Shown here piece by piece: positions 12,660-62,030 of a stretch of 64,000 bases of DNA. A program made the position numbers and the translations under genes. This DNA is from Marchantia polymorpha subsp. ruderalis (taxonomy: Eukaryota; Streptophyta; Marchantiopsida; Marchantiales; Marchantiaceae), in assembly GCA_037833965.1 (NCBI GenBank), contig AP031358.1:20964001-21028000 (forward strand), given 5' to 3'. A model generated the notes under the pieces. It made no database searches and was not told where the DNA came from. It saw nothing but the letters and a program-made list of their open reading frames with translations. The stretch's first letter is position 1, and every line of letters starts with the position of its first letter.

Positions 12660-13142
12660 CGCATATGTCATATCACAAGTTATAGAATTTGGAAAGTCAC
12701 AAATGGCATGTCACCATCTCAATCTAGGGATTCGTAAATATCTAGAAGGTTTAGGAGGCCAATGACATATTGCTACATATTGATAACTAGTCAACCTTAC
12801 TATGGTTTATCTCTGTAAAAGTAAGTTAGATAGGAATTACCATTTGTTATTATGGTAATTTCACAAGTAGTATATATGGAGAGGTAGGGAAGAACCTCTC
12901 GAGCAAGTTTGGAGAGTTCATGTGTGATAACTTGTTTTAGGAATGAAGGAGTGAGGTTTTTTCAATACATTGGAGCATCAACGTGTGTTTGAGTTTGTAT
13001 GATTTGAGTGATGTATGAAGAGTTTTTGTGAGAGGGTGTATGAAACACAAGTATGAGTGAGAATCCTAGTCTTTTAGAACCATGATGAGCTACCACAAAG
13101 CCATTTAAGGTAAATTTGAATGAGAATCAGCCCAGAGGTTGC
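12660..13142 (+). mobile_element. 5'-truncated LTR related to the 50-58 kb gypsy family
   Basis: From about 12700 the sequence follows the 3' two-thirds of the intact LTRs at 50148 and 57150: the AATGGCATGTC block, AAAAGTAAGTTAG, a TATATA box near 12866, GAGCAAGTTTGGAGAG, AGAACCATGATG(A/C)GCTACCAC and a terminal CAG(C/A)CC...GAGGTTGC. The 5' part is missing. Divergence is high, so this is a much older insertion. Confidence 0.7.
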
Positions 13143-13572
13143 GGTACGGCTCTCCGTACCCTCCTTTGGACCAACCTCCACTTGAAAAACTCCTCCAACT
13201 CTCTAGGCTGCAACTCTAGCAGGCCCTCTTGTCGCGTTCCAAGAATTCCAAGGATGACAAATATCTCGCCTGTCACTATATATGTCCTGTCATTGTCTCT
13301 ATCGTCCCGGTAGACAATGAGCTAACCAGTGATGTAGAAACTACTAAATCTTAGCGCAGTCGCTATTGTTTAGCCAAACCCAAGTTCACAATTGAAGTAA
13401 GACTATTCAAATACATAGCCTAGCTCAGAACCTAACGACATGACGTCTTTGAAACTGAAGGAGTCTCTGTTACGCTGGTAGAAAACCCCATGGCACGCTC
13501 GCGCATATCTGTGTTGGCACCCATCAACGGCTGCATACGAGTATCTCATACAAGCCGGAGACCATCATCCCT

Positions 13573-14043
13573 CTAAGCATGTGATGTGGAAAAACTCACA
13601 AATGTGGATAATGTCATATGAGGCTGTTTAGTAGCAACTAGCGCACTAGAACTGCAAAAAGGCTGACCACCTTGAGATGTCTCTATCTCATCAGGTAAAG
13701 AAGCCTCACCCCAAACCTTCTTCATCAACCTATAAGTCTCTAGCTGCAACTCATGGCAAGAACGCCAAAGTGGAACGTCTAAGGAAGAAGACACTTTCGC
13801 CGTTAGGATCATAATGTTCTCCATATCCTCATAGACCAGAGTGTCGTCGGCCAACATGTTGCACTCTAGCAAGTCGTCGGGCCACGCAAACTCTCCGCTA
13901 AACCCTGCAACAGATGCCAACATCGTAGGAGAAGATCCAAGCGGTTGAACTTTAGAAACGAATATCACAAGTAGCTCGCTCATAAGTCCATCCCCTAACT
14001 GCCAATCAGAGTGATAGGCTGCTGTCTTTGTCCAATACTCCAT
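13573..14043 (-). CDS. Hypothetical ORF between two facing LTRs
   Basis: A 156-codon open frame opens MEYWTKTAAYHSDWQLGDG. I do not recognise it. It has no zinc knuckle, protease, reverse transcriptase or integrase motif. It lies in the 1.28-kb interval between two oppositely oriented LTR-like sequences, so it may be the internal region of a non-autonomous element or simply chance. Codon use gives no strong support. Confidence 0.2.
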   Translation of the reverse strand: MEYWTKTAAYHSDWQLGDGLMSELLVIFVSKVQPLGSSPTMLASVAGFSGEFAWPDDLLECNMLADDTLVYEDMENIMILTAKVSSSLDVPLWRSCHELQLETYRLMKKVWGEASLPDEIETSQGGQPFCSSSALVATKQPHMTLSTFVSFSTSHA

Positions 14044-14424
14044 CTGAAAATCCCAAACTGCTCCTCCAACATCTACATTATGATTTTGTTGATATCACCA
14101 CAACACAAACTCCAAGCTGTGAGCTATCATGTGCGTCATCATACCTCAATTCCACGGATACGTTCTCGGTCATGAAATATGACCTATCACTGGTACCTCC
14201 AAATGATGTCTGGATCTTGAATGGACAAGGCTCAACCTCGAATCTCCGAACTTCCAAACTGATGCAAGCTGCCTTGTTCAACATCAAGGGTTGTGCACCA
14301 AAGTTGAACAAAACTCTAGCTATGACATACACTTGTTAAGTAGAACTCACCAAGCGAAACAAACCACTCCGGTTGTCCATCATACACACACCAAGGACAA
14401 TACTCTCACAATCAATGGCTGGTC

Positions 14425-15226
14425 TACAACCTCCGGGCTGACTCTCACTCAGGTTTACCTTAGATGACTTTGGTTTTGGTAGCTTATCATATTTCTAAAA
14501 GACTAGGATTCCTCATGAGACTCATAGCCTAAACAACCTTTCACACAGTCCCTCAATGTATCACTTCAAACCACACACTCATCGATACTCTAAAGTATTG
14601 AAAATCCTCACTCTTTCATATATGAAATAAGTATCTACATATGAACTCTCCAAATTGGTTGAGAGATTCTTTCCTACCTCTCTATATATATTACTTACAA
14701 ACTAACCACGGTAACAAACGGTAATTCCTATCTAACTTACTTTTACAAAGATAAATCATAGAAATGTTGACTAGTTATCAATATGTGGCAACATGCCATT
14801 GACCTTTTAAACCTTCTAGATGTTTACTAATCCCCAGATTGAGGTGACGATGTGCCATTTGTGCCTTTCCAACTTCTAAAACTTCCACTTTCCACTAGGT
14901 CAACATTAGATTTAGTCTGACCAATGGATTACTCCTTACTTAGTCAAACCAATCAAAACTAAACATGAAATCAAAAGTTTTTTCTCTTGGAATTCAGAAT
15001 TTTGTACAAGACAAAATAGAAGTGCTCATTCAAATTTTCTAGAACTTTTTTAGTTATTCTGCCAAGTATAGACATTATAGCTAAACATAGTTATAACTTG
15101 ATAAACTTAGTTATAACTAGCTAGACTTAGTCATAGCTAGCTAGATTTAGTCATAAGTATTATAACCATGATTAACTTCTTGGCTATTTCTAGTTTTATT
15201 TCACACATGCAATATCCGATATTACA
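14425..15226 (-). mobile_element. LTR related to the 50-58 kb gypsy family, reverse orientation
   Basis: Reverse-complemented, this stretch starts TGTAATATC near 15226 and ends ...GGTTGTA near 14425, about 802 bp against 858 bp for the intact LTR. It keeps the family signature: repeated TAGTTATAACTA and AGTCATAGCTA palindromes (15060-15165), the AATGGCATGTTGCCACAT block, AAAAGTAAGTTAGATAGG, a TATATA box (about 14680) and AGTCAGCCCGGAGGTTG at the end. No primer-binding site or clear target duplication adjoins it. Confidence 0.7.
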
Positions 15227-44161: not shown

Positions 44162-45757
44162 TTGGAAAAAAACTTTTGATTTTTTTTAATTTTTATTCAA
44201 TTTTCATTCAACAAATTTTGAAATTTTAAATCTTCTCTTTTTTTACTAATATTTTTATATAATGTTTAGATTATGATTATTTGAGAAGATTATAAATACT
44301 TAAATATAATAAATATTCATCAATTGAATTTTTTGTTTTTTTTAATTACAAATAAGTTGCATACAATATTGAAAATTTGTATTTGAAATATTTATATTAT
44401 TTAAAAAATCAAAATCACTTTGTTATGTCTTCTTGCATCAATGAAAACTGAATACTCATATTTATGAAAAAAAAAAATGTTACATTGTGTTGGTGAATGA
44501 TCTTAATCCTAGTTAATTTTAGTTAGAAAAGTTGTCAGGATTGGTAGTATTTAATCTGTGACTTCATACAGAATAATATTTTTTCATTATTAGTGATACA
44601 TTCATTCTCGCGTTTTTTCACGCCGTGTATGTCATTATTCATCTGGATGAATCACATAATCTATGAGTTCTTTGTTTAATCTAAAGTTGTTGTTTTACGA
44701 GTTTGAGACTAAGAATGAGATATTTGCTTGATGGAACTCCATCAAGAATATATTTGCTTGCTAGGATCTATCAAGTTTTATTTTACCCGATGGGATCTCA
44801 CGGACGGTGTGCCGTCAATGAGTTCTAGTGAATGTTCTAATGTGGATATGTACTTGTAACAATTTGTTTTAATACATGTTCTTATAAAAATATGTTCTTG
44901 TTCTTCACTATCCAAGCTGCTGATACCTCCGGTTGGTATACGTGATAATATGTTCCAAGTCTTTTTCACTGTTGAAAAACCTCTGCAGTGTCTATTAGGT
45001 TAGATACGATCATTCGTTGGAGGCAAAATTCACATGATGCATATTTTCCACTTGATGCGCAACTCGGTTTACTGGAATTCGTCCTCTATCAATTATATTT
45101 GTGGGCGTTTTGTCCTTTTGAGCGGCACAATAAATATATCAATACCCAGTTTCACAAACTTGTTGTTGAGGTCTCAAATTGAGCACAATTCATATTTCCA
45201 CATTTTATATTTTCAACTGAAATTTAACAGAATGATATTGAAGTTCAAAGACATCATGCCGTGCTGTCAGCTTTGGAGCTCTACGTGTGACCAAAGATAC
45301 AAGTTTGAGATAAGCTAGTTTTTGTTTGCAACATAGAGACAAAATATCTTACTAACACAGTGATGGTGCTCATTTATGCAATAAAGCAATACAATGGAAT
45401 TAAAATAAACGTTGAGAGCTTTATTTATTTTTATAGAAGCCTTTACATACCGTGCTTCTAATTAAATGCAACTCATATATCCCCTGTCATGCTTCCTTAT
45501 TTTTTAGTAAGTAGGAGTAGAAACTGGAAGAATGGAACTAGAGAGTGGTATTGATATGCTCATCATCTCAAGAGCTGCTGCAAGGACCTTTGTTGCAAAG
45601 TTGCTGCACTTGCTTGTATGAAGCCTAATGCTTCCACAATATCTTCCTCTCCCATTAGGGATGTTGCAACTACGGCCTTGAAGAGCATTTATTTCTGATT
45701 TATATCCATGTTTGTATTTTCTCTCAAAATGGACAAGGTGCCTAGGCATATATCATT
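44162..45757. other. Stretch without an assigned gene
   Basis: AT-rich to about 44.9 kb, then mixed composition with ORFs of at most about 95 codons and no recognised motif. Confidence 0.45.
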
Positions 45758-47750: not shown

Positions 47751-48874
47751 TCATAACATCAAATAGGGCATATCATCAATGTCATCAAAATATTCTCCAA
47801 TACTATCACTACAAAAGTCATCTGAAGTTCCTCCGATGGAGTTTTTAGATATTTCTTCTGAATCACTATAGATGTCTTTTGAAAGAAGTCCAACAGATAA
47901 TGTGAAAACACAAGATTGAAGCTTTGATGATGATATCACACTCTCAGTCTCCTCATTCATTAAGTCTGCAACATCAGAATCTCCTTTTCTTTTGCATGTA
48001 CGGGCATTGTGTCCCAATTGCTTGCATTTGGAACACTTACTTTTTGCCCTGTAATCTTGGTTCTTCAAAGCTTGACTTGCTTCTGTTTGTTTTACAATTT
48101 GTACATGTTTATCACCAGGTAGAATCTGTTGTAGGTCAACATCATCACAAATGGGGTACTTAACAAACATCATATCACCCTCTCCATAGAACTCGTCGGT
48201 TGCAAGTTCTAATGAAGCTTTGCGTAAACTTTTACCACTGTCAATTCTCACCATCTGATGACGACTTCTTTTTACAGTTAAAGGAGGTGGGTAACAATCT
48301 TAATGAGCATTCAAGTGAAGATTCATTATAACATACGTAAACTTTCAGTTTTCCAACACCGGTTGAAATGTCTGTGAAAGTCTTTGCCTTCCATATTATC
48401 CCATGCCATGAGATGTCCTCATGGCCAAATCATTTCTTGTGTCTCCACAAAGGTACATGTAGTTGTCGGTGACAATGAAACAACTTACTCTTCATTGCCA
48501 TATGTAGTAGAAACTTTGGCGCTATACTTCTCGTCGTCAACAACCTGCCATTGTCCATAAGTTCGCAGGTTCACCTTGTGTCAAAAATCTATTGGAAAAG
48601 TCAGAATAGGCTTTCTTCTGGCAACTTTTGAACGTCAAAAATTGAACTTATTTTGAATTTAATCCCACAACGTAACAATCAACTTGAAAGTAGCATACTC
48701 TCGTATCTCCAACAAATCCAAATTTATCTGTTTGATAGTATTAGAAGTCACTTTGCCTAGTCGAGGTAGTGGAAATGCATCTCTAGACCATAGTCGCAGA
48801 TGTATCTATCTAATATAATGTGCAACATCTTCTCTTTTTTTTGTTTGTGACAAAAACTTCATCTTCCTCTTCAT
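47751..48874 (-). pseudogene. MULE transposase, C-terminal part with zinc knuckle
   Basis: On the minus strand, from about 48870 leftward, decayed frames follow a MuDR-type C-terminus. A PRLGKVTSNTIKQINLDLLE-like block (about 48770-48700) and an REYATFKLIVTLWD helix are recognisable, then stops interrupt. The last part is an intact 167-codon frame (48254-47751) with a CCHC knuckle CSKCKQLGHNARTC (C-x2-C-x4-H-x4-C), the finger that typically ends plant MULE transposases after the SWIM domain. An acidic Asp/Ser tail follows. The missing catalytic segment lies inverted immediately to the right. Confidence 0.7.
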
Positions 48875-48910
48875 ATTCCAGCTTTGATGTCCAAGATTCA
48901 AGAGGAAGAT
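48875..48910 (+). repeat. 36-bp breakpoint repeat, left copy
   Basis: This copy is exactly the reverse complement of 49390-49425. It encodes P-A-L-M-S-K-I-Q-E-E-D of the transposase. The 11 bp ATCTTCCTCTT at 48861-48871 is the reverse complement of its last 11 bp, a likely microhomology used when the inversion formed. Confidence 0.85.
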
Positions 48911-49389
48911 CCGGGCATTGTAGTTAATTGGTCAACTTACGCCAATTCTACAATTTTCCATCGAGCATTTATATGCCCCTCAGCGACACGTAATGCTATG
49001 AAGTATTGTCAACCGCAAGTTAGCTTGGACGCATGTCACACAAAAATCATGAAGTATCCCTCTCAGCTTTTCATGGCCATTGCTCTTGATGGAAATAGTG
49101 AAGTGGTGATTCTTTGTTTTGATTTAGCACCGGTTGAGAACATAGAGAATTAGACTTGGTTTTGCACTTTACTTCAGGTTTCCATAATAGGTTTATTTGA
49201 TCCAAATGTTCCTTCAATTTCTGATAGACAAAAAAGACTTTTAGTTGCAATGAAAGATGTATTTCCAAGTTCTATACATGGTTATTGTGCTTTTCATTTG
49301 AAAAGTAACATTAAGCAGGCATTTAGTAAATTCTGTGAGGATTTTTTTTGAGCCTTGGTATATGCTGAGACCAAGACTCGTCGTTTTGT

Positions 49390-49425
49390 ATCTTCCTCTT
49401 GAATCTTGGACATCAAAGCTGGAAT
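49390..49425 (-). repeat. 36-bp breakpoint repeat, right copy
   Basis: This is the in-place copy within the N-terminal transposase frame; its reverse complement is at 48875-48910. The frame leaves transposase sense right after it and runs into the antisense of the flipped segment (TKRRVLVSAYTK). Confidence 0.85.
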
Positions 49426-49713
49426 CATATGGTAAGATTTCTGCTCTACTCCTATGTATAAATCCTTCACAATATACTTAGCCCGCCACATCTGATGATA
49501 CTTTGTATTTAACTTATAATCAGATCTGAATCCAATCACTAATTCTCTAAAAGTTACACGAATGTTGCGTGTAATTCTATTTCCTATCGTTCCGTCAAGC
49601 CAGTGTGAAGTATGTAAAGGACCTCTCCACCTACTCTTATGTCGCGGACATGTGTGTTCAACATTCAACAAAGTGATCACAAATGCACCCTTTGTAGCGC
49701 GTTGGCAGCGCAC
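49426..49713 (-). pseudogene. MULE transposase, N-terminal part
   Basis: The minus-strand frame encodes NVEHTCPRHKSRW, a helical block IRVTFRELVIGFRSDYKL and then MWRAKYIVKDLYIGVEQKS, leading into MIPALMSKIQEED. This is the conserved order of the MuDR N-terminal DNA-binding region and its link to the DDE domain. More N-terminal sequence may continue to about 49912 in other frames, with decay. The Ty3/gypsy element inserted just beyond (50148) separates any right-hand terminus from the gene. Confidence 0.75.
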
Positions 49714-50147
49714 TTTAAAAGAACATGGACCTATGAAACTAGATTCCCTAAAACTAGTATTTGATCTAATTCACCACAAGCTCCAGTCACAAAAGATACA
49801 CATGATCAAAAGATATACAGATGATGTTGTGTTTCTAAACACAACATCACGATGGGGTCCAAAACTTCCAGGAATTCACTCCAAAGTATGTTTTACGACT
49901 GAACGGGGATAGCTCAAATACTTTTGTTAACTCTAGAAGATACTTTGCTGTTTGTCGCAGGTTGATTTAGCTTGATTCTTCTGGCAGCTGCTTTCATAGC
50001 TTATACACTAACACGCGTAGAAGTTGTGGGAGTGTACTTGGTTGTGGTTGAACTCTGCACTTCTCGAATAGAAACTCTCTCCATTTCAACCTCTTCAGTT
50101 AGCTCAATTTTTTTTCACCTAATAAAAGGCTTTCGCCTTACTGGGCC

Positions 50148-51005
50148 TGTAAGACTGGGTGTTGCACATATGTACTAAGTCTTAAAAGTGGTCAAGGGAA
50201 TAAGGATGATTAGCCAAGGCATAGCTAAGACTAGCTAGTTATGACTAAACTAGTTAGTTATAACTAAGTTTATCTAGTCATGACTAAGTTTAGCTACAAT
50301 CTCTATAGTTGGCGGAATAATTAGCGGAGTTCTAGAAGAATGGAGTGAGCACTTCTATTTTGTCTTTCACAAGGAATGAGCACTTCTATTTTGTCTCATA
50401 CAAAAGTTCTAGATTCCAAGGGATTAGATATTTGACTAGAAGCTTGGATTTGATTGGTTTGACTAAATGTATGAAAGATGATTGGCTAGACTAAGTCTAA
50501 TGTTGACTTAGTGGCTAGGAAGCTTGTAGAAGTTTAAAAGCTTCCAATGGCATGTCGCCACCTCAACCTTGGATTCCGGAAGCTTCTAGAAGGTTTAGGT
50601 AGGCCAATGGCATGTTGCCACGTAGAGAAGGTTAGTCAAACTTACCTAGGTAAAAGTAAGTTAGGAGAAATTACCACATGTTACTATGGTAACTTCTCAA
50701 GTAGTATAAATAGAGAGGTAGAGTAGCACCTCTCAAGCAAGTTTGGAGAGTCATGTGTGAGGACTTGTTTCAGTAATGAAGGAGTGAAGTTTTTGAGTAT
50801 CTTGGAGTATCGACGTGTGTTTGCATTTATGTGAAGAGGGTGATGTGAGGAGAGTTGTGTGTGAGTTGGAGTGATACATGAGAGTTTGTAAGAGAAGGTG
50901 TTTGGGACATGAGTGAGAGTATGAATCTTAGTCTTCTAGAACCATGATGCGCTACCACAAAGCCATCAGAGGTAAACCTGAGTGAGAGTCAGCCCGGAGG
51001 TTGCA
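50148..51005 (+). repeat. 5' LTR
   Basis: Begins TGTAAGACTGGGTGTTGCAC and ends GGAGGTTGCA (TG...CA). The upstream part has clustered short palindromes (TAGTTATAACTA, AGTCATGACT, AACTAGTT at 50230-50295). A TATAAATA box lies at 50705-50712, giving a probable R start about 30 bp downstream. Confidence 0.95.
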
Positions 51006-51009
51006 TTTT

Positions 51010-51026
51010 TGGTTCCGTTGCCGGGA
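51010..51026 (+). other. Primer-binding site
   Basis: TGGTTCCGTTGCCGGGA lies 4 nt after the LTR. It matches the complement of the plant tRNA-Asp 3' end (TGGCGCCGTTGCCGGG) except for two bases. This marks first-strand cDNA priming. Confidence 0.75.
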
Positions 51027-51682
51027 CCTCAATCTAGAAGGCGGAATGTTTAGGATTCGATTTCTAGCTCGAGAGAAAGTATCCATGAGGGATCACTTGG
51101 TGTTAACATTGGGGAATGAAAGAGCGGAGAGTGTGCTTGAGAGCGAAATTCCATTTGTTTATCCCATAGTCTCATATGATAGCCTAGAAGTGATTTTGTA
51201 TGTTTTGTTCACGTAAACATGTCTTTTTGAGAGAAAAGTGATCTTAGACACCGAAAAGTATTTTTGAAGGTATTCTTCAAAGTTTTTATTGATTTTAGAG
51301 TGAAAGATAGAGAAAATTTACGTTTTTGTTTCAGGTCCAGATCATGTGTTAACAGAAAGATATGAGAGTTAGAAGTTGAGTGGGTTTTCACGGGTATCAA
51401 AAGTCTGCTCTCTGGAAAGTTTGTACAGAGTTGATTACTTTTTCTGTATTTCAATTTAGGCTTTGAAACTTCGTACGAGTGTGTATTGGAAGATAAGCTA
51501 CGTTTGAGTCAAAATTTCACTGAAAGATCACGTCTAGAGACGAAGTTATGTTGATTTGAAGTTGAGGGGGTACAAAAGCAAGATAACAAAGCAAAAGTTT
51601 TTGATTTCTTTATTCACAGTTTTCGTCAAGTAGATAGCGTTTCTGGGAGAGGTCTTTTGAGTGGTTTCTACCTTATGGGAAA

Positions 51683-52126
51683 ATGAGTGAACAAGAAGGT
51701 TGGAAGGTTAGGTTATCCAAAGTACCTCAAGGCTTGGATGTTATAGTGTCTTTAGACTCCAATACAAGAGAATTCAAGGTGGAGTTTGAAGAAAGAGTAG
51801 TGAGTCAATCTCCAAGAGTCAAACGTGAAACTTGTTTTTATTGTGGAGAGGAGGGCCATAAGGTTGTCAATTGTTCCCTGCGGAACAAAGATAGAAGATT
51901 GAGGAGCAAGAGGAACTTGGGAGATTTGAAACTTCACTTGGGACCATCATCGCCACATGAATCCCAAAGCGCCACCTTCTGTGACAATTGCGGAGTGATT
52001 GGGCTACCAGCGGGACACGAATGCAGCGGAGTGAAGGCACTTCTGGAATCACTTGTGGAAGGGTTTGACGGCAAGCTAAGTGCTGAAACAGAGAAAGTGA
52101 CCTCAGCGGGTTCAAGCTCCAACTGA
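51683..52126 (+). CDS. Extra leader ORF with CCHC zinc knuckle
   Basis: A 147-codon ORF sits between the primer-binding site and gag-pol. A retroviral-type knuckle CFYCGEEGHKVVNC occupies residues 51-64 (C51, C54, H59, C64). A second Cys/His cluster CDNCGVIGLPAGHEC is at 100-114. A basic segment lies between them, and an acidic/Ser-rich end closes the protein. The main polyprotein has its own knuckle, so this is an additional protein and not the family's gag. Typical gypsy elements place extra ORFs after pol. It could be a captured host mRNA fragment or a duplicated nucleocapsid piece; its function is unknown. Confidence 0.7.
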   Translation: MSEQEGWKVRLSKVPQGLDVIVSLDSNTREFKVEFEERVVSQSPRVKRETCFYCGEEGHKVVNCSLRNKDRRLRSKRNLGDLKLHLGPSSPHESQSATFCDNCGVIGLPAGHECSGVKALLESLVEGFDGKLSAETEKVTSAGSSSN

Positions 52127-52318
52127 AGATGGAGATCATCATTCGAATGATGGAGAAGATGATGATGAGGGTAAGACTCATCGTATGCCTAGGAGAGGAG
52201 AGAGCTTTGGCTATCTTGGAACAACCAATTCCTTTTGTGTTTCCTTTGATGAATTACTCAAGGATGGAGTTAGTGTTGTTTATATTGTATTAGGAAGCCC
52301 CATATAAATTTCCAATAG

Positions 52319-52349
52319 AAAAAAAATAAAAAAAAAAAAAAAAAAAAAA
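52319..52349 (+). repeat. A-rich tract before gag-pol
   Basis: Eight A, one T, then twenty-two A, ending 10 nt before the ATG at 52360. It may be an unstructured leader helping translation of the second ORF, or the poly(A) tail scar of a captured transcript carrying the leader ORF. Confidence 0.85.
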
Positions 52350-52359
52350 TTAGTTGGAA

Positions 52360-55300
52360 ATGGGGAAGCTTCCGGTATTTTATGGGAGGGAGAATGAGGA
52401 TGTAGAAGCTTTTGTTAGGGACTTCAAGAGGGCTTGCATAGGAAACAATGAGAGGAAGAAAGACGAGTGGGCTATGCTTTTGCCGGATTTCTTGGAGGAT
52501 TCTGCTCTCAAGTGGTACAAGGAGTACAAGAGGGAGCATTCGGAGGACGACACGTGGGAGACATTAACGGAGAACCTGATCGAAAACTTTCTTCCCAGTG
52601 AAAGTTATGAAAAGTTGATGTGTGAGGTCACCTTCTTGAAACAAGGAGAGAACGAGAAGGTGAGGACCTATGTGGAGAGAACCGAGAAGTTGGAATCTAG
52701 ATTCCACGTGGTGTTGAGGAAGGGCGGAGACGAAGTGGATGCTACAATGGTGGGGATAAGGGCGATGCTCATGAAGAACTTCGTTGGAGGTTTGAGACCA
52801 GAGATTCGAAGTAAGGTGAGATACGAGAAGCCCTCTTCTAAGGCTGAAGCCATTCGAATTGCTATTAGAATGGAGGAGAGCTTAGAAGATGATGATTCTA
52901 GCTTGGTGGCTAGAGAAGTAGCTCCACCGGTTGTAGGAAAGTCTATTGTTTCAAACACTTCTACTTCATCCACGATAGCGAATCCTAGTGTGGATTTTCA
53001 AAATGAGTTGAAATCTATCACGGAGACTCTAGCAGATCTCAAGATCAATGTAGTACAGTTGTGGGAGAAGAGGAATCAGAACGTAGTAGGAGGCTCTAGG
53101 GGGTATGGAAATTATCCTCCAAGAGGAAATCCACCTTCAGGAAACTTTGCGGTTTCTTGCTTTTCTTGTGGAGGTCCTCATTTTCAGAGGAATTGTCCTA
53201 ACCCTCGACAACATGATGGAGTTCGGCACAACAACAATGCACCGGCCACGCAACAAGCCAAGGATAAGGGAGTAGCATCCATTGATGTATTCCCTCATCA
53301 ATGCACTTTTGAGAAAGGGGAGAGCTCAAAATCGAAAGTGGATATCCTTGCTCATGAGAAGAAGCGGGCCCGATTTGCGGACGAGTCGATTTTCATGGAG
53401 GACACGCCAAGTCGAAGTACACGGTCAAGTGGAGTGAGTCAACCAAGAGTACCAAGGAAGAAGTTGGGCATGGATGACTTTTCCATTTCATCTTCTCAAG
53501 CTAAGTATGACGTGGTGGAGGATGTAGGAAATCAGAAGGCCAATATAACAGTTGGTCAGCTGATTGCCTTGAATCCAGCCATTCGGAAGGAGTTAAGAGG
53601 AGGTCTTATCTCCACAAGGACCAAGAAGCGGAAATCTAAGGGGAAGGCTCACATGACCAATGTGGGAGTTGGGGTGGTGGATGCGGCTGCTTCGGAGGTA
53701 TGTACACATGCTTCAAAGATCGAAGTGAGGATCAATGGACATGATGTATCAGATGTGTTGGTTGATGGTGGATCGGCTGTGAATGCCATGTCTGAGAGGT
53801 TGATGCAGAAGTTGGGTATGCAACCTTCTAGACCTTCTAGCATAATTGTTGGTATGGCCAACAAACAGAAGGTAAGACCACTGGGGGTGGTAGACAAAGT
53901 TGTGGTTAGTGTGAGGGGAGTGCAAACTTTGCTTTCCTTCCAAATTCTCAAGGAAGCTAGCTACGACTTGCTGTTGGGACGTCCTTGGTTGAGGGCGGTA
54001 AGGACTACGGACCGATGGCACAAGGGCTATTTGAGGATAGGCCCAAAGAACCATCGAGTTAAGGTTCCTTTGACGAGAGGAGGGGAATCCACCACTGACT
54101 CAGATAGACCAACTGACGAGTATTGGGAATCTGAGAGTGAAGAGAGTGGTAGCTTTTCAGAAGTTGACACAGACATCTCAACTTCTGATCAAGAAACATC
54201 ATCGGAGTACTCTTCTGATGATAATGTTCAAGTACAAGTCATTGCTGCCATGGAGTTGTTGCCTAGGCCTGGAGTGAAGAAAGATCCTGACAAAGTGGAG
54301 ATGAGCGAAGAGGAGGTGTGTCGACGACTGTCCACTCTCAGGTTTGGTCCCAAGGTTACCAAGGAGGAAAAGGCAAAGTTTCTGGATATATTTCGCAAAT
54401 ATATTCATGTTTTTGCCTTTAGTTACAAGGATCTTAAGCATGTGACGTTGGAGACTCATCGCATCGAGTTGGAGGAGAAAGCTCGTCCTATTCGGCAAAA
54501 GCAACGCCGAATAAATCCACCTACGGCTCTTGTGGTGAAGGAGGAGATCGACAAGCTCAAGGAGGCTGGCTTCATCTACGAGGTAGAAAATTCTGAATGG
54601 GTGTCTCCAATTGTGATAGTGAAGAAGAAGAATGGTAAGCTACGAGTGTGCGTAGATTACAAAAAGTTGAATGCTGTCACAAAGAAAGACTACTATCCCT
54701 TGCCTTTCATAGATGAGATTCTAGAGGAGGTTGCTGGCCATGAGTGGTATAGTTTTGGAGATGGTTATAGTGGCTATAACCAAATCCAAATTGCCTTAGA
54801 AGACCAACTCAAAACAACTTTTACTACTCCATGGGGAACCTTCGCTTTTAGAGTGATGCCGTTTGGTCTATGTAATGCTCCTGCCACTTTTCAAAGGTTC
54901 ATGAATAGAGTGTTTGAACCTTTCATTGGAAAGTTTGTAAGGGATTTCATAGATGATTTTTGTGTTTACGGGAGGAAAGCGGATCATTTTGATCATTTGA
55001 TCAAAATACTTCAACGGCTGGAGGAAGCTAAGGCTTCACTCAATCCAGAAAAATGCATTTTTGGATGTGAGGAAGGCCTATTGTTGGGGCATATCATCTC
55101 CAAGAATGGTATAGCGGTGGACCCAGAGAAGGTGACACGGATCATGGAGTTACCTTTTCCGGCGACTTTAACCAAGTTGAGGCAATTCCTTGGTATGGTG
55201 GGGTACTATCGACGGTTCATCTTGTCCTTCTCCAACAAAGCTCATGCCTTGACAAATTACATGAAGAAGGGAGTGGAGTACGAACTCATTTTCAAGGATG

Positions 55301-57126
55301 AAGCTGCAAAGACGGCGTTCGAAGTTCTCAAGAAGGCGTTGGTGACGGCTCCAATTTTGGCGAAACCGGATTGGGGTAAACCTTTCATTCTCTACACAGA
55401 TGCATCAAATATTGCTGTAGGATGCACCTTGAGTCAATTAGATGATGAAAAGCATGATCATCCAATTGCCTATGCTAGTAGACAAATGGTTCAAGCGGAG
55501 AAGAACTACTCAGTGACAGAGAGAGAGGCGTTAGCTGTAATCTTCTCACTTAAGAAGTTTCGACATTATTTGTTGGGTGGGAGATTCACTATAGTGACTG
55601 ATCATAAGGCTTTGAAATACATTTTCAACAAGCCTAATGCTGAAGGGAGGATAGCTAGATGGAAGCTACCACTAGCAGAGTTTGATTATACCATTGAGGA
55701 TAGACCTGGAAAGAAGCATGCTAATGCGGATTTGATGTCGAGAGCATATGATGATGGAGGAGATCAGTCAGTAGATGACACCTTTCCGGATGAGGACTTG
55801 CTAGTCATGGACACGGTGACAACAGTACCGGAGGAGTACAAGGAAATTTGGGATTTCATCTCTAAAGGAGAGTTTTCTCAAGGAATGCATCAAAGGGAGA
55901 AAAATGCATTAGTGAAGAGATGTCAACCATATATGATCATGGAGAAGGTACTTTTTCATCAAGGAGCTGACGGACTTCTACGAAGGGCGGTTGGGAGAGG
56001 AGAGGCATTACAACTCATGAAGGAGTTTCATGATGGTGCAGTATGTGGAGGACATTTTGCGGGGAAGGTAACTGCCTTCAAAATTCTTGATGCTGGTTAT
56101 CATTGGAAGGGTAATTTTAAGGATTGTGTGGAATATTGCAAAAGTTGTGATGTGTGTCAAGCTTTTGCTAAAAAGTCCATGAAAACCCCTCCTATGATTT
56201 CTGTACCAGTGTTAGGTCCTTTTGAAAAGTGGGGAATAGATTTTGTAGGTCCTTTGAATCTTACTCCTCGAGGGAATAAGTTCATTGTGATAGCTACAGA
56301 TTATCTTACGAAGTGGGTAGAGGCAAGACCACTTAAATCTACTAATGAGAAGGAGGTTGGTAGATTTTTATATGAGAGAATCATTACTCGATTTGGTTGT
56401 CCATTGGAGTTAGTATCAGATAGAGGAGGAGAATTTGTGGGAAGTATGATTCAAGCCATGTTGGAGCACTTTTCCATCAAGGCTCGAGTGACCACTTCCT
56501 ACAAACCTAACGCTAATGGGTTGGCGGAGCGGACCAACTACACTTTGTGTATGATGTTGGCCAAGGATGCAGACATGGACGGGAGTAAACACAATTGGGA
56601 CAAGAGGCTCCATGCTATCTTATGGGAGTATCGCACAACATGGAAGACATCTACTGGATACTCACCTTTTCGGATGGTGTATGGAGTTGAGTCAAAACTT
56701 CCCATACAGTTTGACTTGACAACATTCACAACAATCCAGCAAAGGTTGAAGAAATCAAATGGAGCAGAAGCCATCAAGTCTCGCCAACAACAATTGATGG
56801 AGTTGGAGGAAGCTCGAGCACTAGCCATGGTACGAGTGGAGCGGGCTCAACAGTTGCAGAAGAAGTATCACGACAAACGAAGTGGAAACCAGAACTTGAA
56901 ACCGTTCAAGGAAGGTGATTGGGTGATGCTCTTTGATGCAATTAGATACAAGAGAGCTAGGAAAAAGTTTCTTCCTAAGTATTTTGGACCTTTCATAGTT
57001 GAGAAGGTGTGGGGAAATTTCACTTATGACATCAAGGAGTTAGGAGGACGTCACTTCGATCGAGTCAACCACGACAAGTTGAAGTTATTCCATCGAAGAT
57101 CAGATTCTTTCACTCCGAGGGCGTAG
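52360..57126 (+). CDS. Ty3/gypsy gag-pol polyprotein
   Basis: The protein is 1588 aa from the ATG at 52360; numbering here is from the in-frame TTG at 52354, two codons earlier. Gag covers about 1-300, with the knuckle CFSCGGPHFQRNC at 269-281. The protease motif VDGGSAVNAM has its Asp at 471. Reverse transcriptase shows the RVMPFGLCNAPATFQRFM block and a FIDD active site at 865-868. RNase H (LYTDAS) has Asp 1016. Integrase has an HHCC finger from His 1226 and catalytic D1296, D1356 and E1392, with 35 residues between the last two. A GPF module (PKYFGPFIVEKV) follows, and the protein ends HDKLKLFHRRSDSFTPRA without a chromodomain. One frame encodes all functions with no frameshift, so Gag and Pol would need proteolysis for separation. 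Confidence 0.95.
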   Translation: MGKLPVFYGRENEDVEAFVRDFKRACIGNNERKKDEWAMLLPDFLEDSALKWYKEYKREHSEDDTWETLTENLIENFLPSESYEKLMCEVTFLKQGENEKVRTYVERTEKLESRFHVVLRKGGDEVDATMVGIRAMLMKNFVGGLRPEIRSKVRYEKPSSKAEAIRIAIRMEESLEDDDSSLVAREVAPPVVGKSIVSNTSTSSTIANPSVDFQNELKSITETLADLKINVVQLWEKRNQNVVGGSRGYGNYPPRGNPPSGNFAVSCFSCGGPHFQRNCPNPRQHDGVRHNNNAPATQQAKDKGVASIDVFPHQCTFEKGESSKSKVDILAHEKKRARFADESIFMEDTPSRSTRSSGVSQPRVPRKKLGMDDFSISSSQAKYDVVEDVGNQKANITVGQLIALNPAIRKELRGGLISTRTKKRKSKGKAHMTNVGVGVVDAAASEVCTHASKIEVRINGHDVSDVLVDGGSAVNAMSERLMQKLGMQPSRPSSIIVGMANKQKVRPLGVVDKVVVSVRGVQTLLSFQILKEASYDLLLGRPWLRAVRTTDRWHKGYLRIGPKNHRVKVPLTRGGESTTDSDRPTDEYWESESEESGSFSEVDTDISTSDQETSSEYSSDDNVQVQVIAAMELLPRPGVKKDPDKVEMSEEEVCRRLSTLRFGPKVTKEEKAKFLDIFRKYIHVFAFSYKDLKHVTLETHRIELEEKARPIRQKQRRINPPTALVVKEEIDKLKEAGFIYEVENSEWVSPIVIVKKKNGKLRVCVDYKKLNAVTKKDYYPLPFIDEILEEVAGHEWYSFGDGYSGYNQIQIALEDQLKTTFTTPWGTFAFRVMPFGLCNAPATFQRFMNRVFEPFIGKFVRDFIDDFCVYGRKADHFDHLIKILQRLEEAKASLNPEKCIFGCEEGLLLGHIISKNGIAVDPEKVTRIMELPFPATLTKLRQFLGMVGYYRRFILSFSNKAHALTNYMKKGVEYELIFKDEAAKTAFEVLKKALVTAPILAKPDWGKPFILYTDASNIAVGCTLSQLDDEKHDHPIAYASRQMVQAEKNYSVTEREALAVIFSLKKFRHYLLGGRFTIVTDHKALKYIFNKPNAEGRIARWKLPLAEFDYTIEDRPGKKHANADLMSRAYDDGGDQSVDDTFPDEDLLVMDTVTTVPEEYKEIWDFISKGEFSQGMHQREKNALVKRCQPYMIMEKVLFHQGADGLLRRAVGRGEALQLMKEFHDGAVCGGHFAGKVTAFKILDAGYHWKGNFKDCVEYCKSCDVCQAFAKKSMKTPPMISVPVLGPFEKWGIDFVGPLNLTPRGNKFIVIATDYLTKWVEARPLKSTNEKEVGRFLYERIITRFGCPLELVSDRGGEFVGSMIQAMLEHFSIKARVTTSYKPNANGLAERTNYTLCMMLAKDADMDGSKHNWDKRLHAILWEYRTTWKTSTGYSPFRMVYGVESKLPIQFDLTTFTTIQQRLKKSNGAEAIKSRQQQLMELEEARALAMVRVERAQQLQKKYHDKRSGNQNLKPFKEGDWVMLFDAIRYKRARKKFLPKYFGPFIVEKVWGNFTYDIKELGGRHFDRVNHDKLKLFHRRSDSFTPRA

Positions 57127-57130
57127 TGAA

Positions 57131-57149
57131 ATCTTGGTCCGGGGGTAAA
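57131..57149 (+). other. Polypurine-like tract before the 3' LTR
   Basis: GGTCCGGGGGTAAA abuts the 3' LTR and is the expected position for plus-strand priming. It is interrupted by pyrimidines and so is less pure than most. Confidence 0.55.
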
Positions 57150-58007
57150 TGTAAGACTGGGTGTTGCACATATGTACTAAGTCTTAAAAGTGGTCAAGGG
57201 AATAAGGATGATTAGCCAAGGCATAGCTAAGACTAGCTAGTTATGACTAAACTAGTTAGTTATAACTAAGTTTATCTAGTCATGACTAAGTTTAGCTACA
57301 ATCTCTATAGTTGGCGGAATAATTAGCGGAGTTCTAGAAGAATGGAGTGAGCACTTCTATTTTGTCTTTCACAAGGAATGAGCACTTCTATTTTGTCTCA
57401 TACAAAAGTTCTAGATTCCAAGGGATTAGATATTTGACTAGAAGCTTGGATTTGATTGGTTTGACTAAATGTATGAAAGATGATTGGCTAGACTAAGTCT
57501 AATGTTGACTTAGTGGCTAGGAAGCTTGTAGAAGTTTAAAAGCTTCCAATGGCATGTCGCCACCTCAACCTTGGATTCCGGAAGCTTCTAGAAGGTTTAG
57601 GTAGGCCAATGGCATGTTGCCACGTAGAGAAGGTTAGTCAAACTTACCTAGGTAAAAGTAAGTTAGGAGAAATTACCACATGTTACTATGGTAACTTCTC
57701 AAGTAGTATAAATAGAGAGGTAGAGTAGCACCTCTCAAGCAAGTTTGGAGAGTCATGTGTGAGGACTTGTTTCAGTAATGAAGGAGTGAAGTTTTTGAGT
57801 ATCTTGGAGTATCGACGTGTGTTTGCATTTATGTGAAGAGGGTGATGTGAGGAGAGTTGTGTGTGAGTTGGAGTGATACATGAGAGTTTGTAAGAGAAGG
57901 TGTTTGGGACATGAGTGAGAGTATGAATCTTAGTCTTCTAGAACCATGATGCGCTACCACAAAGCCATCAGAGGTAAACCTGAGTGAGAGTCAGCCCGGA
58001 GGTTGCA
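57150..58007 (+). repeat. 3' LTR
   Basis: 858 bp, offset 7002 bp from the 5' LTR and reading the same throughout. The TATAAATA box is at 57707-57714. It ends GGTTGCA, then GGCC. Confidence 0.95.
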
Positions 58008-58011
58008 GGCC

Positions 58012-60350
58012 ATATCGGCACACACGCACAAGTCAATTAAATTTCATATTGAATTTATGATATGCTCTGCCTTCTATCACACTCCAAGAATGAAGACATC
58101 TATCAAACTTCTCAAAGCTGTCAAAATTCTTTCCCAATCTTACACGCTAGAACTCTCTTTGAACTTCATCCGGACTTCTTCCAACCAAAACAACCATGTT
58201 ACTTGTTTGATATCTAAACATCTTTCAGTGAGAATATCCATGTTGAAAAATAGTTTAAGGTGGAAGAGATATACGGTATGCGTTGGAAATCTCAATCATT
58301 GTCGGTCCATTGTGATAGTATGCCTGTGAAGACTCCACATACTCGTCCATACTCTCTTGATTTGTTAGCTCCCTGCAACAACAAAAAAAGTTGGATAAGA
58401 ATTCATTTTTGCATTATTCACACATCCATATGCTATATCCAAAAGATCTTGAAAGTTTATCGAGGCGACTGAGATAAAAGAGACCTTAAGTTCCTTGTGG
58501 CCCGCATCCCACCACCTCTCAAATGCACCAACGAGAGAACGTTCAAATGTGACGAGCATCAGAACAACTTGATCATGACAAAGAAAACACTACAAGGACC
58601 AGACCACGTGAAGTGACTGGGAAAGAGCCACTAGTCCTTGTTAGAAGTTTTTGTAACATTACAGCTAAATCGAACTTTCGGCAACCTGTTGAGTAAATTT
58701 GTTCTCTTTTTCAAATTGAACTTGACTTTCCTTCTTAGCTTCAAGAATAATACTACCATCAACTGAACAAGTAATACATCTGAATGTCATGGATGTTATG
58801 CTTTAAACAATGCTCATGCACATGTCATACGTAAAAATCATAAGCCCTGCACGATGCCTGAACCGAGCTCGAGTCCAAAAGAATAAGTAGCTAGAGAAGA
58901 CGATACAGAAGAGAAAATATACGAAGAGAGAACTTTTTGGTATTGACGAGGATATCTCTACAAGTGAGATTCTACCAAAGAACAAGGTAAAAATTTGTAT
59001 CGAATACCTTGCTGCATCCAAGCCCTTTATGCATTTAGAGTGTGGTTTGAGAAACTAATGCCAAGAGCAGACACAAGAATGACACTGCACTGAGCGTTGC
59101 AACCGAATTTGTGTTAGTACAATGTGCAGCAAGAAATTCAAGGGGTGCGACACGAATGTTCCATCAGATATTATCATCGAATAAATTATGTTATTTGAAG
59201 ATATACTAGGTACCACAGCCGGCAGAGATTACAACTAGTATAATTAAGTGTAAAACACGCCACGATGGCCGGGCTTTTACAGAAGCTCAGCTGTAGGAAT
59301 GAATTTTCTCTTTGCAAAACCAAGAGATAGAAAGCAAATAAAAGTAAGAAAGAAAATGCATAATATGATATAAACACAAAAGAGAACACTCAAGAAATCC
59401 AATTCTTTAGGTATAAGAAGATATTTAGAGGGAAGAGATTATAACGCCATATGAAAGAAAACTTGAGTATAAACCTAGTGTGAACCACCAGACTTTAGGC
59501 TCGGCTAGTGAAAGAAAACAAAAAACAGGAAAAGACGCAAGAGTATACTCGTAAACCTGAACATGTTTCAAAAAGAACAGAAGTTATCGCAAGTTCTTAT
59601 TAAGAGATTTCATTTGTCAAAAAATGTTGTCAAGAAGATAACACAAGTAACTACTAACAAAGTCATTAGAGATAATTAAAGTAAGACGAAGCAAGATAAT
59701 GAAGTTGGGAGAGATCAGAAGCATGAGAAGACTTCTAAGACTCGCACGACTCTTTTATTTGCATAATTGTCTGCATTTCACACATACGAGGAAAATTATA
59801 TTTTATCTTGCATTTTTTCTCATATTATCTCATGAATAGAATGAATCATGAGACAACATGCAAGAATCTAGGTTACAACTGTAACCACAAAGACATGATT
59901 GACAATATGTAGGAGAATGCATGGCATGAATCGTATGGATGGCTTGGGTCGAAGTCTTTCATGCCAACTGATTGCTCGAACGCCTTTCCGCGTACACGAG
60001 GTCACAGTTAACCAATATGGCTGAACCTAATTCTTCAGTCCTCACAATGAGCTAAGACTACTTGAGGAATTCCACAAAGATATCAATTCATTGAGTTCAT
60101 ACAACAAGTTTGGTAAAATTGACAACTAATTGTAGATCAATCAAGATTTTACCTCGCCTTTTGCCAACGAACACAATGCTACGCAAGCAATATCTAAACT
60201 CTAACAAGATTACACGCTCTTGTTCTGTGATCAAACTAGGATAAGGTTGAGTTGAAAGAAGGGAGGGGCAATAAAGAGGGTATCTTGCTTGTCGCACATC
60301 AAAACTAATGTCTAGACGAAGTATGAGTAACAACTGCTTTCCACCCGCTC
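58012..60350. other. Stretch without an assigned gene
   Basis: Only unrecognised ORFs of up to about 108 codons. One minus-strand frame (58803-59021) contains a strongly hydrophobic segment but nothing diagnostic. It is the continuation of the DNA into which the gypsy element inserted. Confidence 0.4.
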
Positions 60351-61209
60351 TGTAAGACCAGGTGTTGCACATATGTACTAAGTCTTAGAAGTGGTCAAGG
60401 GAATAAAGATGATTAGCCAAGGCATAGCTAAGACTAGCTAGTTATGACTAAACTAGTTAGTTATAACTAAGTTTATCTAGTCATGACTAAGTTTAGCTAC
60501 AATGTCTATAGTTGGCGGAATAATTAGCGGAGTTCTAGAAGAATGGAGTGAGCACTTCTATTTTGTCTTTTACAAGGAGTGAGCATTTCTATTTTGTCTT
60601 ATACAAAAGTTCTAGATTCCAAGAGATTAGATATTTGACTAGAAGCTTGGATTTGATTGGTTTGACTAAATATATGAAAGATGATTGACTAGACTAAGTC
60701 TAATGTTGACTTAGTGTCTAGGAAGCTTGTAGAAGTTTAAAAGCTTCCAATGGCATGTCGCCACCTCAACCTTGGATTCCGGAAGCTTCTAGAAGGTTTA
60801 GGTAGGCCAATGGCATGTTGCCACGTAGAGAAGGTTAGTCAAACTTACCTAGGTAAAAGTAAGTTAGGAGAAATTACCACATGTTACTATGGTAACTTCT
60901 CAAGTAGTATAAATAGAGAGGTAGAGTAGCACCTCCCAAGCAAGTTTGGAGAGTCATGTGTGAGGACTTGTTTCAGTAATGAAGGAGTGAAGTTTTTGAG
61001 TATCTTGGAGTATCAACGTGTGTTTGCGTTTATGTGAAGAGGGTGATGTGAGGAGAGTTTGTGTGTGAGTTGGAGTGATACATGAGAGTTTGTGAGAGAA
61101 GGTGTTTGTGACATGAGTGAGAGTATGAATCCTAGTCTTCTAGAACCATGATGCGCTACCACAAAGTCATCAGAGGTAAACCTAAGTGAGAGTCAGCCCG
61201 GAGGTTGCA
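60351..61209 (+). mobile_element. Solo LTR of the same gypsy family
   Basis: 859 bp, starting TGTAAGACCAGGTGTTGCAC and ending GGAGGTTGCA, with scattered substitutions against the intact LTRs (for example TTTACAAGGAGTGAGCATTT for TTCACAAGGAATGAGCACTT). It keeps the TATAAATA box near 60908. The flanking 4-bp GCTC (60347-60350 and 61210-61213) is the target duplication. No internal sequence remains, so this is the product of LTR-LTR recombination and is older than the intact element. Confidence 0.92.
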
Positions 61210-61350
61210 GCTCTTGCTTGAGCTCCGCCAAGGCGAGACAAAGTATGACGACCGCTTTTCATCACCTCTCGCTTGAGATCCGCCAATGGGAGACAAAATA
61301 TGATAAACAACCGCTTTCCACTCGCTTGAGCTCCGCCAAGGCGATTGACG
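61210..61350. repeat. 53-55 bp minisatellite interrupted by the solo LTR
   Basis: Units start GCTTGAG(C/A)TCCGCCAA at 61216, 61271 and 61324 and contain GAGACAAA(G/A)TATGA and CCGCTTT(C/T)CA. The sequence left of the LTR (60318-60350, GTATGAGTAACAACTGCTTTCCACCCGCTC) is the end of another unit, so the LTR inserted within the array. Confidence 0.7.
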
Positions 61351-62030
61351 AACGCACCGTCTGTTCCTACTAGAATAGTGTGACGTATGCCGTCGTTGGG
61401 GATCCAACAAGAAGGATATAAATTTTTGACCATGACAATTTTTGACGGATTACAAAATTGTGAGAGCATCGACAATCTGGCGTATCCCTCCCAGTGATCC
61501 CGCGCTTTAGTAAAAGCAAAACAGTAAAAGCTCATTCATCCTCCATCACATCATTGCACAGTAGCAACTTTTGACAACTCTTTACAACAGGAAGCAAGAG
61601 AGAAATTGGTCAAATTGCGAAAGTATCTAATATATTCTATGTTTGTGACAGTTTGCCAAATCTCAAAATAAAGACGTTGAACAAGACAAAGTTCATTAAA
61701 GTCGAGAGTTCTCAAGTTGAGCGATTATTGAAGAATCCTCAATCGATAGTGTTACAAAGTTGATTGAATCATAAGAAGGCAGAATTCGACATTGGTACCC
61801 ATTAGGAAAAAAGATTACAACGATTGTCATAAGTGTATGTACAGACATGCACTTATGTTTCATAGTTAACTAAGAAGTTTTTGAATGGACCGACTTTTCA
61901 TATCACAAATCTTAACTTAAAACCATAACAAGTCGAACAATACGGCATGATCTACTTGGTTGTGAATCAAAATTACACATCGTCTTACAAGGAAAGCAAT
62001 TTAGCGAGCGAACAATGAACGTTGAGCGCA
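61351..62030. other. Stretch without an assigned gene
   Basis: Mixed AT-rich sequence with short ORFs only. Its right part may belong to the 3' LTR of the chromovirus, whose outer end I could not fix. Confidence 0.4.

Follow-up and report, generated by a model that had tools for sequence, protein, structure and literature searches.

A 0.5-kb piece of one MULE transposase gene reversed in place, with a 36-bp duplication at both ends

How does half a kilobase in the middle of a gene come to read backwards, and what do its two ends say of the event? The locus that raises this question lies at 20964001-21028000 of contig C9 in a 241-Mb, nine-contig genome; we call this whole 64-kb stretch, as analysed, the window. 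The original prediction held that part of a MULE transposase gene had been inverted in place here and that the breakpoint duplication was still intact. The parts concerned, numbered within the window, are as follows.

47751-48869, minus strand: C-terminal transposase part (glutamate motif region, SWIM-like and CCHC-like ends), uninverted; collinear with relatives L009-L011 at 84.5-85.9%, with protein matches
48870-48874, no strand: left-junction filler, about 5 bp as judged by eye from 12 relatives; its last bases with those next to them match the end of the 36-mer over 11 bp
48875-48910, plus strand: 36-bp arm, the copy within the block; exact inverted repeat, with one counterpart in 16 of 19 relatives and two in none of the 19
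48875-49388, plus strand: inverted block, the MULE core with the first two presumed catalytic acids (LDACHTK, SDRQK) and CAFH; 88.9-90.3% identical to L009-L012, on the strand opposite to its flanks when set against 19 of 19 relatives; PF10551 matches its L009 counterpart
49389, no strand: filler of about 1 bp at the right junction, read by eye against relatives
49390-49425, minus strand: 36-bp arm, the copy left with the N side; exact inverted repeat
49426-50147, minus strand: N-terminal transposase part, uninverted; homology to relatives resumes at 58008-58433, past a nested LTR retrotransposon

The identity of the gene is given by its relatives. The L009 counterpart encodes a MULE transposase, matching PF10551 at E 9.2e-15 (55.3 bits, cut-off 27.6) and PF00872 at E 3.2e-8. 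The window's own 65-residue piece reaches 24.7 bits, below the MULE domain cut-off of 27.6, and its 100-residue piece has no match. At the zinc-finger ends the scores also stay below the cut-offs: 12.4 bits for SWIM (cut-off 19.6), and 12.4 bits in L009 and 14.1 bits in the window for zf-CCHC (cut-off 20.8). Of three L009 pieces, one matched four NCBIfam families, none of them anywhere near its cut-off (the highest score, for IS256, was 41.1 bits against 150), and a search of solved structures returned a single weak, unrelated match (E 0.39). For the N piece Pfam gave thymidylate synthase at 18.4 bits, short of the 24.3 cut-off; we set this aside as chance, and other weak matches likewise. MULEs have rather long TIRs and target duplications of 7-12 bp, according to the available part of PMC9168764, and L009 carries TIRs of 93 bp that are 94.6% alike, flanked by a repeat of 9-10 bp with one mismatch. 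The left end of the window copy is recognizable.

44706-44808, plus strand: left TIR region of the MULE copy, 82.5% identical to the L009 TIR; the element begins near 44706

The right TIR of this copy and its target duplication were not found within the 64-kb window. Near the right end of the MULE, at 61208-61389, overlapping matches to L010 in shifted registers make a short tandem-like array. L012, for its part, holds a 64-codon open stretch between its MULE parts (L012:5445-5636), a candidate captured gene piece, which may resemble the C-terminal portion of a plant small GTPase (LIP1/RABL3-like); it has no match in Pfam or in solved structures.

Is the block really reversed, or are the flanks? 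A search of the genome with positions 48800-49500 gave at least 43 matches, the window included, and the non-self matches fell in at least 20 places, these repeat counts being lower bounds. For comparison 19 of 20 non-self places were taken with their flanks, and the twentieth, a 141-bp match, was left out. Both flanks are seen in 16 of these relatives, the N side only in 2 and the C side only in 1. In all 19 the block stands to its flanks in the orientation opposite to that of the window, which means that the family has one shared order and that the window copy is the odd one; the uninverted order expected elsewhere in the genome was thus found in every relative that was fetched. The arms (48875-48910 and 49390-49425) form a perfect 36-bp inverted repeat, 100% identical with 479 nt between them, as had been claimed for the junction sequence, and they stand out in the self-comparison of the window with E 4.8e-11. 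At up to 11 mismatches, the 36-mer has exactly one counterpart in 16 of the 19 relatives and lacks any in the other 3; no relative has two. Formerly single-copy DNA is therefore present as an inverted duplication at the two ends of the inversion. An inversion common to several copies was rejected, since the left and right junctions, each searched as a 27-base pattern with up to 3 mismatches, have one genome match each, the window itself. For the sequence as assembled, it is confirmed that a 0.5-kb piece of one MULE transposase gene is reversed in place, with a 36-bp duplication at both ends.

An assembly or library artefact would be compatible with the identity of the arms, and the inversion is known from the assembly sequence. 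However, a plain orientation error would not make the extra bases and the 36-bp duplication at the junctions, and the junction sequences are found nowhere else in the genome. The usual sequencing read is longer than 36 bp, and a duplication so short also speaks against an artefact, which we consider very improbable.

The predicted partition of the gene stood in part. The N-terminal part, placed at 49713-49426, does lie there on the minus strand, but homology on the N side extends to 50147 and then runs on at 58008-58433. The block, described as the catalytic DDE segment, contains two of the three presumed acids, LDACHTK and SDRQK being, as we assume, the motifs of the first two catalytic acids of MULE transposases; the third, presumably the glutamate of an NPAEQIN-like motif, falls outside the block. 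This motif, the in-frame stops and the identities of the N side, block and C side were compared between the window and 11 relatives (L009-L015 and L017-L020; L016 and L021-L027 were left out). The position is a glutamate in 8 of the 11 relatives, and is another residue in the other 3 and in the window.

Did the block come from the same copy as its flanks? The N side is 86.7-88.7% identical to L009-L012 and the block 88.9-90.3% identical to the same four; the C side is 86.0-87.4% identical to L009-L011, and L012 retains little of it. The window branch is also placed alike in three separate trees, for N side, block and C side (L013 was omitted from the N tree, and L012, L013 and L020 from the C tree, their flanks missing or poorly matching). 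Because the three parts share their nearest relatives and the window branch keeps its place in the three trees, the simplest view is that the block belongs to the element itself. Another subfamily was rejected as the source of an ectopic block, as the N side, block and C side have the same nearest relatives; an equally distant copy of the same group is a possible donor.

What do the joints say? In the 12 relatives compared there (L009-L020), the N side runs through the 36-mer counterpart into the block, and the block end adjoins the C side. At the right junction of the window, the N side and the 36-mer are followed by about one extra base and then by the block end; at the left junction, the other block end with the second 36-mer is followed by about five extra bases and then by the C side. 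Read by eye against these 12 relatives, in place of a true ancestor that is not known, no microhomology is seen at either junction, no base being assignable to both partners. The joints thus combine little or no homology with small fillers of about 1 and about 5 bp, again as read by eye against relatives. In addition, the window differs from these relatives by a 3-bp repeat just within the block end, near the right junction, and the C side is without 2 bp near its junction compared with relatives. The block end and the C side both reach about the same ancestral point, so that little or nothing appears to have been lost at the second breakpoint, as expected if both came from one break.

To explain this anatomy we propose that two breaks, about 0.5 kb apart, would have fallen inside the transposase gene of one old genomic MULE copy. 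The N-side break would have been staggered, with nicks on opposite strands some 36 nt apart that leave complementary overhangs, and the filling-in of these overhangs would have placed the 36-mer on both ends; the C-side break would have been nearly blunt. The freed segment would then have been rejoined in reverse by end joining, leaving about 1 bp of filler at one joint and about 5 bp at the other. We infer both this break-and-rejoin mechanism and its being one event, and we hold it to be the best explanation, with a probability of roughly 0.56. In fact, two breaks, one of them staggered by 36 nt, followed by backward rejoining, would explain together the arms, the absent microhomology, the small size of the fillers and why so little was lost at the second breakpoint. 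The case is known from one copy in one assembly, without a sister copy or allele that carries the inversion.

In Drosophila, inverted duplications of formerly single-copy DNA at the ends of inversions are read as staggered breaks followed by NHEJ (in the available part of PMC3355041). The inversions 2h and 2q of D. mojavensis are examples, and like our block they lie between inverted copies of once single-copy DNA; unlike it, the duplications described there measure about 1 to 7 kb and surround chromosome segments, whereas ours measure 36 bp around 0.5 kb in one transposon gene (PMC3355041, same part). In mammalian cells, small tandem duplications are ascribed to the fill-in of complementary overhangs before end joining, and genetic evidence is given (PMC8355091, as far as its available text goes). 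There, as here, a short duplication is attributed to the filling-in of staggered ends, but the rejoining described in that text is in direct order, while the segment between our two breaks would have been rejoined backwards.

A polymerase that changes templates could have produced the same order and the same 36-bp arms. In template switching of the FoSTeS/MMBIR kind, synthesis would copy the N side through the 36-mer, jump to the other strand at the block end, copy back through the block and the 36-mer, and make a second jump, to the C side. Work in yeast traces short templated inverted duplications at breaks to foldback through microhomology and ascribes other inversions to template switching (in the available part of PMC11724301); the window inversion resembles these template-switch inversions and foldback insertions in its inverted orientation and short arms. 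Those described in that part of the source make use of microhomology, however, and none is seen at the window junctions, neither at the one presumed switch point nor at the other. Moreover, the two landing points of the jumps would have to coincide within 0 to about 11 bp by chance. A staggered break, filled in and rejoined, fits the anatomy better, with fewer coincidences, and we keep template switching as a tentative second reading. The original prediction had proposed a template switch or a microhomology-mediated inversion; such an origin is not borne out, as no microhomology is seen at either junction by comparison with relatives and the 11-mer on which the proposal leaned is not found ungapped in any of 11 relatives.

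This 11-mer deserves a closer look, as it also counts against the staggered-break reading. ATCTTCCTCTT is indeed present at 48861-48871, as predicted, where the C side matches the end of the 36-mer. It is apparently not a junction microhomology, though: at the same place it occurs ungapped in 0 of 11 relatives, the best showing 3 to 5 mismatches. Several relatives have a gapped look-alike there, that of L009 with two extra bases, and the two break sites may already have shared some homology in the ancestor. The match is also in direct, not inverted, orientation, so that it could not by itself have paired the ends needed for an inversion; a direct match favours deletion. As ready-made homology driving the inversion the 11-mer is therefore not supported by the relatives (0 of 11 ungapped). 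Absent ungapped in relatives, with gapped look-alikes in some, it would either have arisen by chance, from filler and a small loss on top of a likeness that was partly there before, or have been copied as filler from the end on the N side. If it is templated filler, it would point to synthesis with a template jump, and in this respect template switching could account for the match at the C-side junction, though its direct orientation counts against that reading. The 3-bp repeat at the block end and the 2-bp loss on the C side are further marks against the staggered-break reading. One could go further and envision a single scar in which the filler was templated from the filled-in N-side end. 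It would record how a break staggered by 36 nt was filled in, how the two break ends annealed for a time and how they were rejoined in inverted order, all during repair of a MULE excision gap. We think this chain of events unlikely.

The same final sequence would also result from two steps, in which templated foldback first put a short inverted copy of the 36-mer in at the end of the block and the segment was later flipped by recombination between the 36-bp arms. Short templated inverted duplications are documented in yeast, where most measure about 5-34 bp (PMC11724301, available part). But this origin requires two events as well as recombination on 36 bp, and copies with two 36-mers, its intermediate, number 0 of 19 among the relatives; we give it hardly any credence.

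A last possibility is that the breaks came from the element's own excision, the gap being repaired by interrupted copying, with jumps, from the sister chromatid or another copy. Interrupted gap repair was reportedly proposed by Hsia and Schnable in 1996, to go by their title, as the origin of internal deletions in maize MuDR, which lends the idea some support. The MuDR internal deletion derivatives are rearranged, defective MULE copies. The window copy is like them in being an internally rearranged Mutator-like element; unlike them it shows an inversion with little loss rather than a deletion. Filler has been described at repaired breaks in maize (PMC2686159, in the part available). Yet gap repair has left no positive mark here and no foreign template is visible, block and flanks sharing their nearest relatives; the copy is besides heavily damaged, whichever of its lesions came first. 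It seems to us a very poor candidate. No report of an internal inversion in a Mutator-like transposase was found in the literature searched, and one may exist in print.

Did the inversion kill the gene? It had been suggested that the element was disarmed in one step, and the rest of the gene gives this no support. When the window is aligned to the L009 frame, nine in-frame stops appear across the block and the C side, of which the block has two and the C side seven; the residue at the glutamate-motif position is also something other than glutamate. Five of the nine stops are each shared with at least one of the 11 relatives, while the other four, all in the C side, occur in none of the 11 (two relatives are gapped at one of the four). 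The N side has further stops and a change of frame, and many relatives are damaged as well. The inversion hit an old copy that now carries much other damage, and may have come before or after it.

The age of the inversion can be bounded from its arms. The branch leading to the window copy measures 0.075 substitutions per site for the N side, 0.057 for the block and 0.086 for the C side. Its private substitutions, scored only at columns where L009, L010, L011, L014 and L015 agree, amount to 89 in 1552 columns. Had the two 36-bp arms diverged for 0.07, about five differences would be expected between them, and the probability of none would be 0.006; none is observed. The inversion would therefore be no older than about 0.042 substitutions per site (95%, Poisson), unless conversion between the arms has kept them alike. 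With no difference between the arms, the inversion is probably younger than the split of the window copy from its known relatives.

Taken alone, a single inversion alters no existing knowledge. The lesion is private to one dead copy and belongs to a kind already known; it is a clean but ordinary mutation. Its interest lies in its setting: it is small and well preserved, with inverted end duplications, amid many uninverted sister copies in a plant-like genome, and thanks to these the ancestral order is known nearly to the base. Counting such scars across the transposon families of a whole genome would, we envision, reveal how frequently germ-line DNA is inverted by staggered breaks.

A retrotransposon interrupts the MULE copy on its N side, and a solo LTR lies further along the window.

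50148-58007: full-length Ty3/gypsy-type retrotransposon nested in the MULE; two identical 858-bp LTRs, GGCC on both sides
60351-61209: solo LTR of the same family as the nested retrotransposon, 97.4% identical to its LTRs, GCTC on both sides

A single long reading frame of 1590 codons in the nested retrotransposon encodes gag, protease, RT, RNase H and integrase domains; with identical LTRs, this element is recent. The repeat flanking an LTR insertion is more usually 5 bp long, and both insertions here have 4 bp. Further off, at 12680-15150, lie other LTR-like stretches that are 69-74% like the LTRs at 50-61 kb, one of them reversed.
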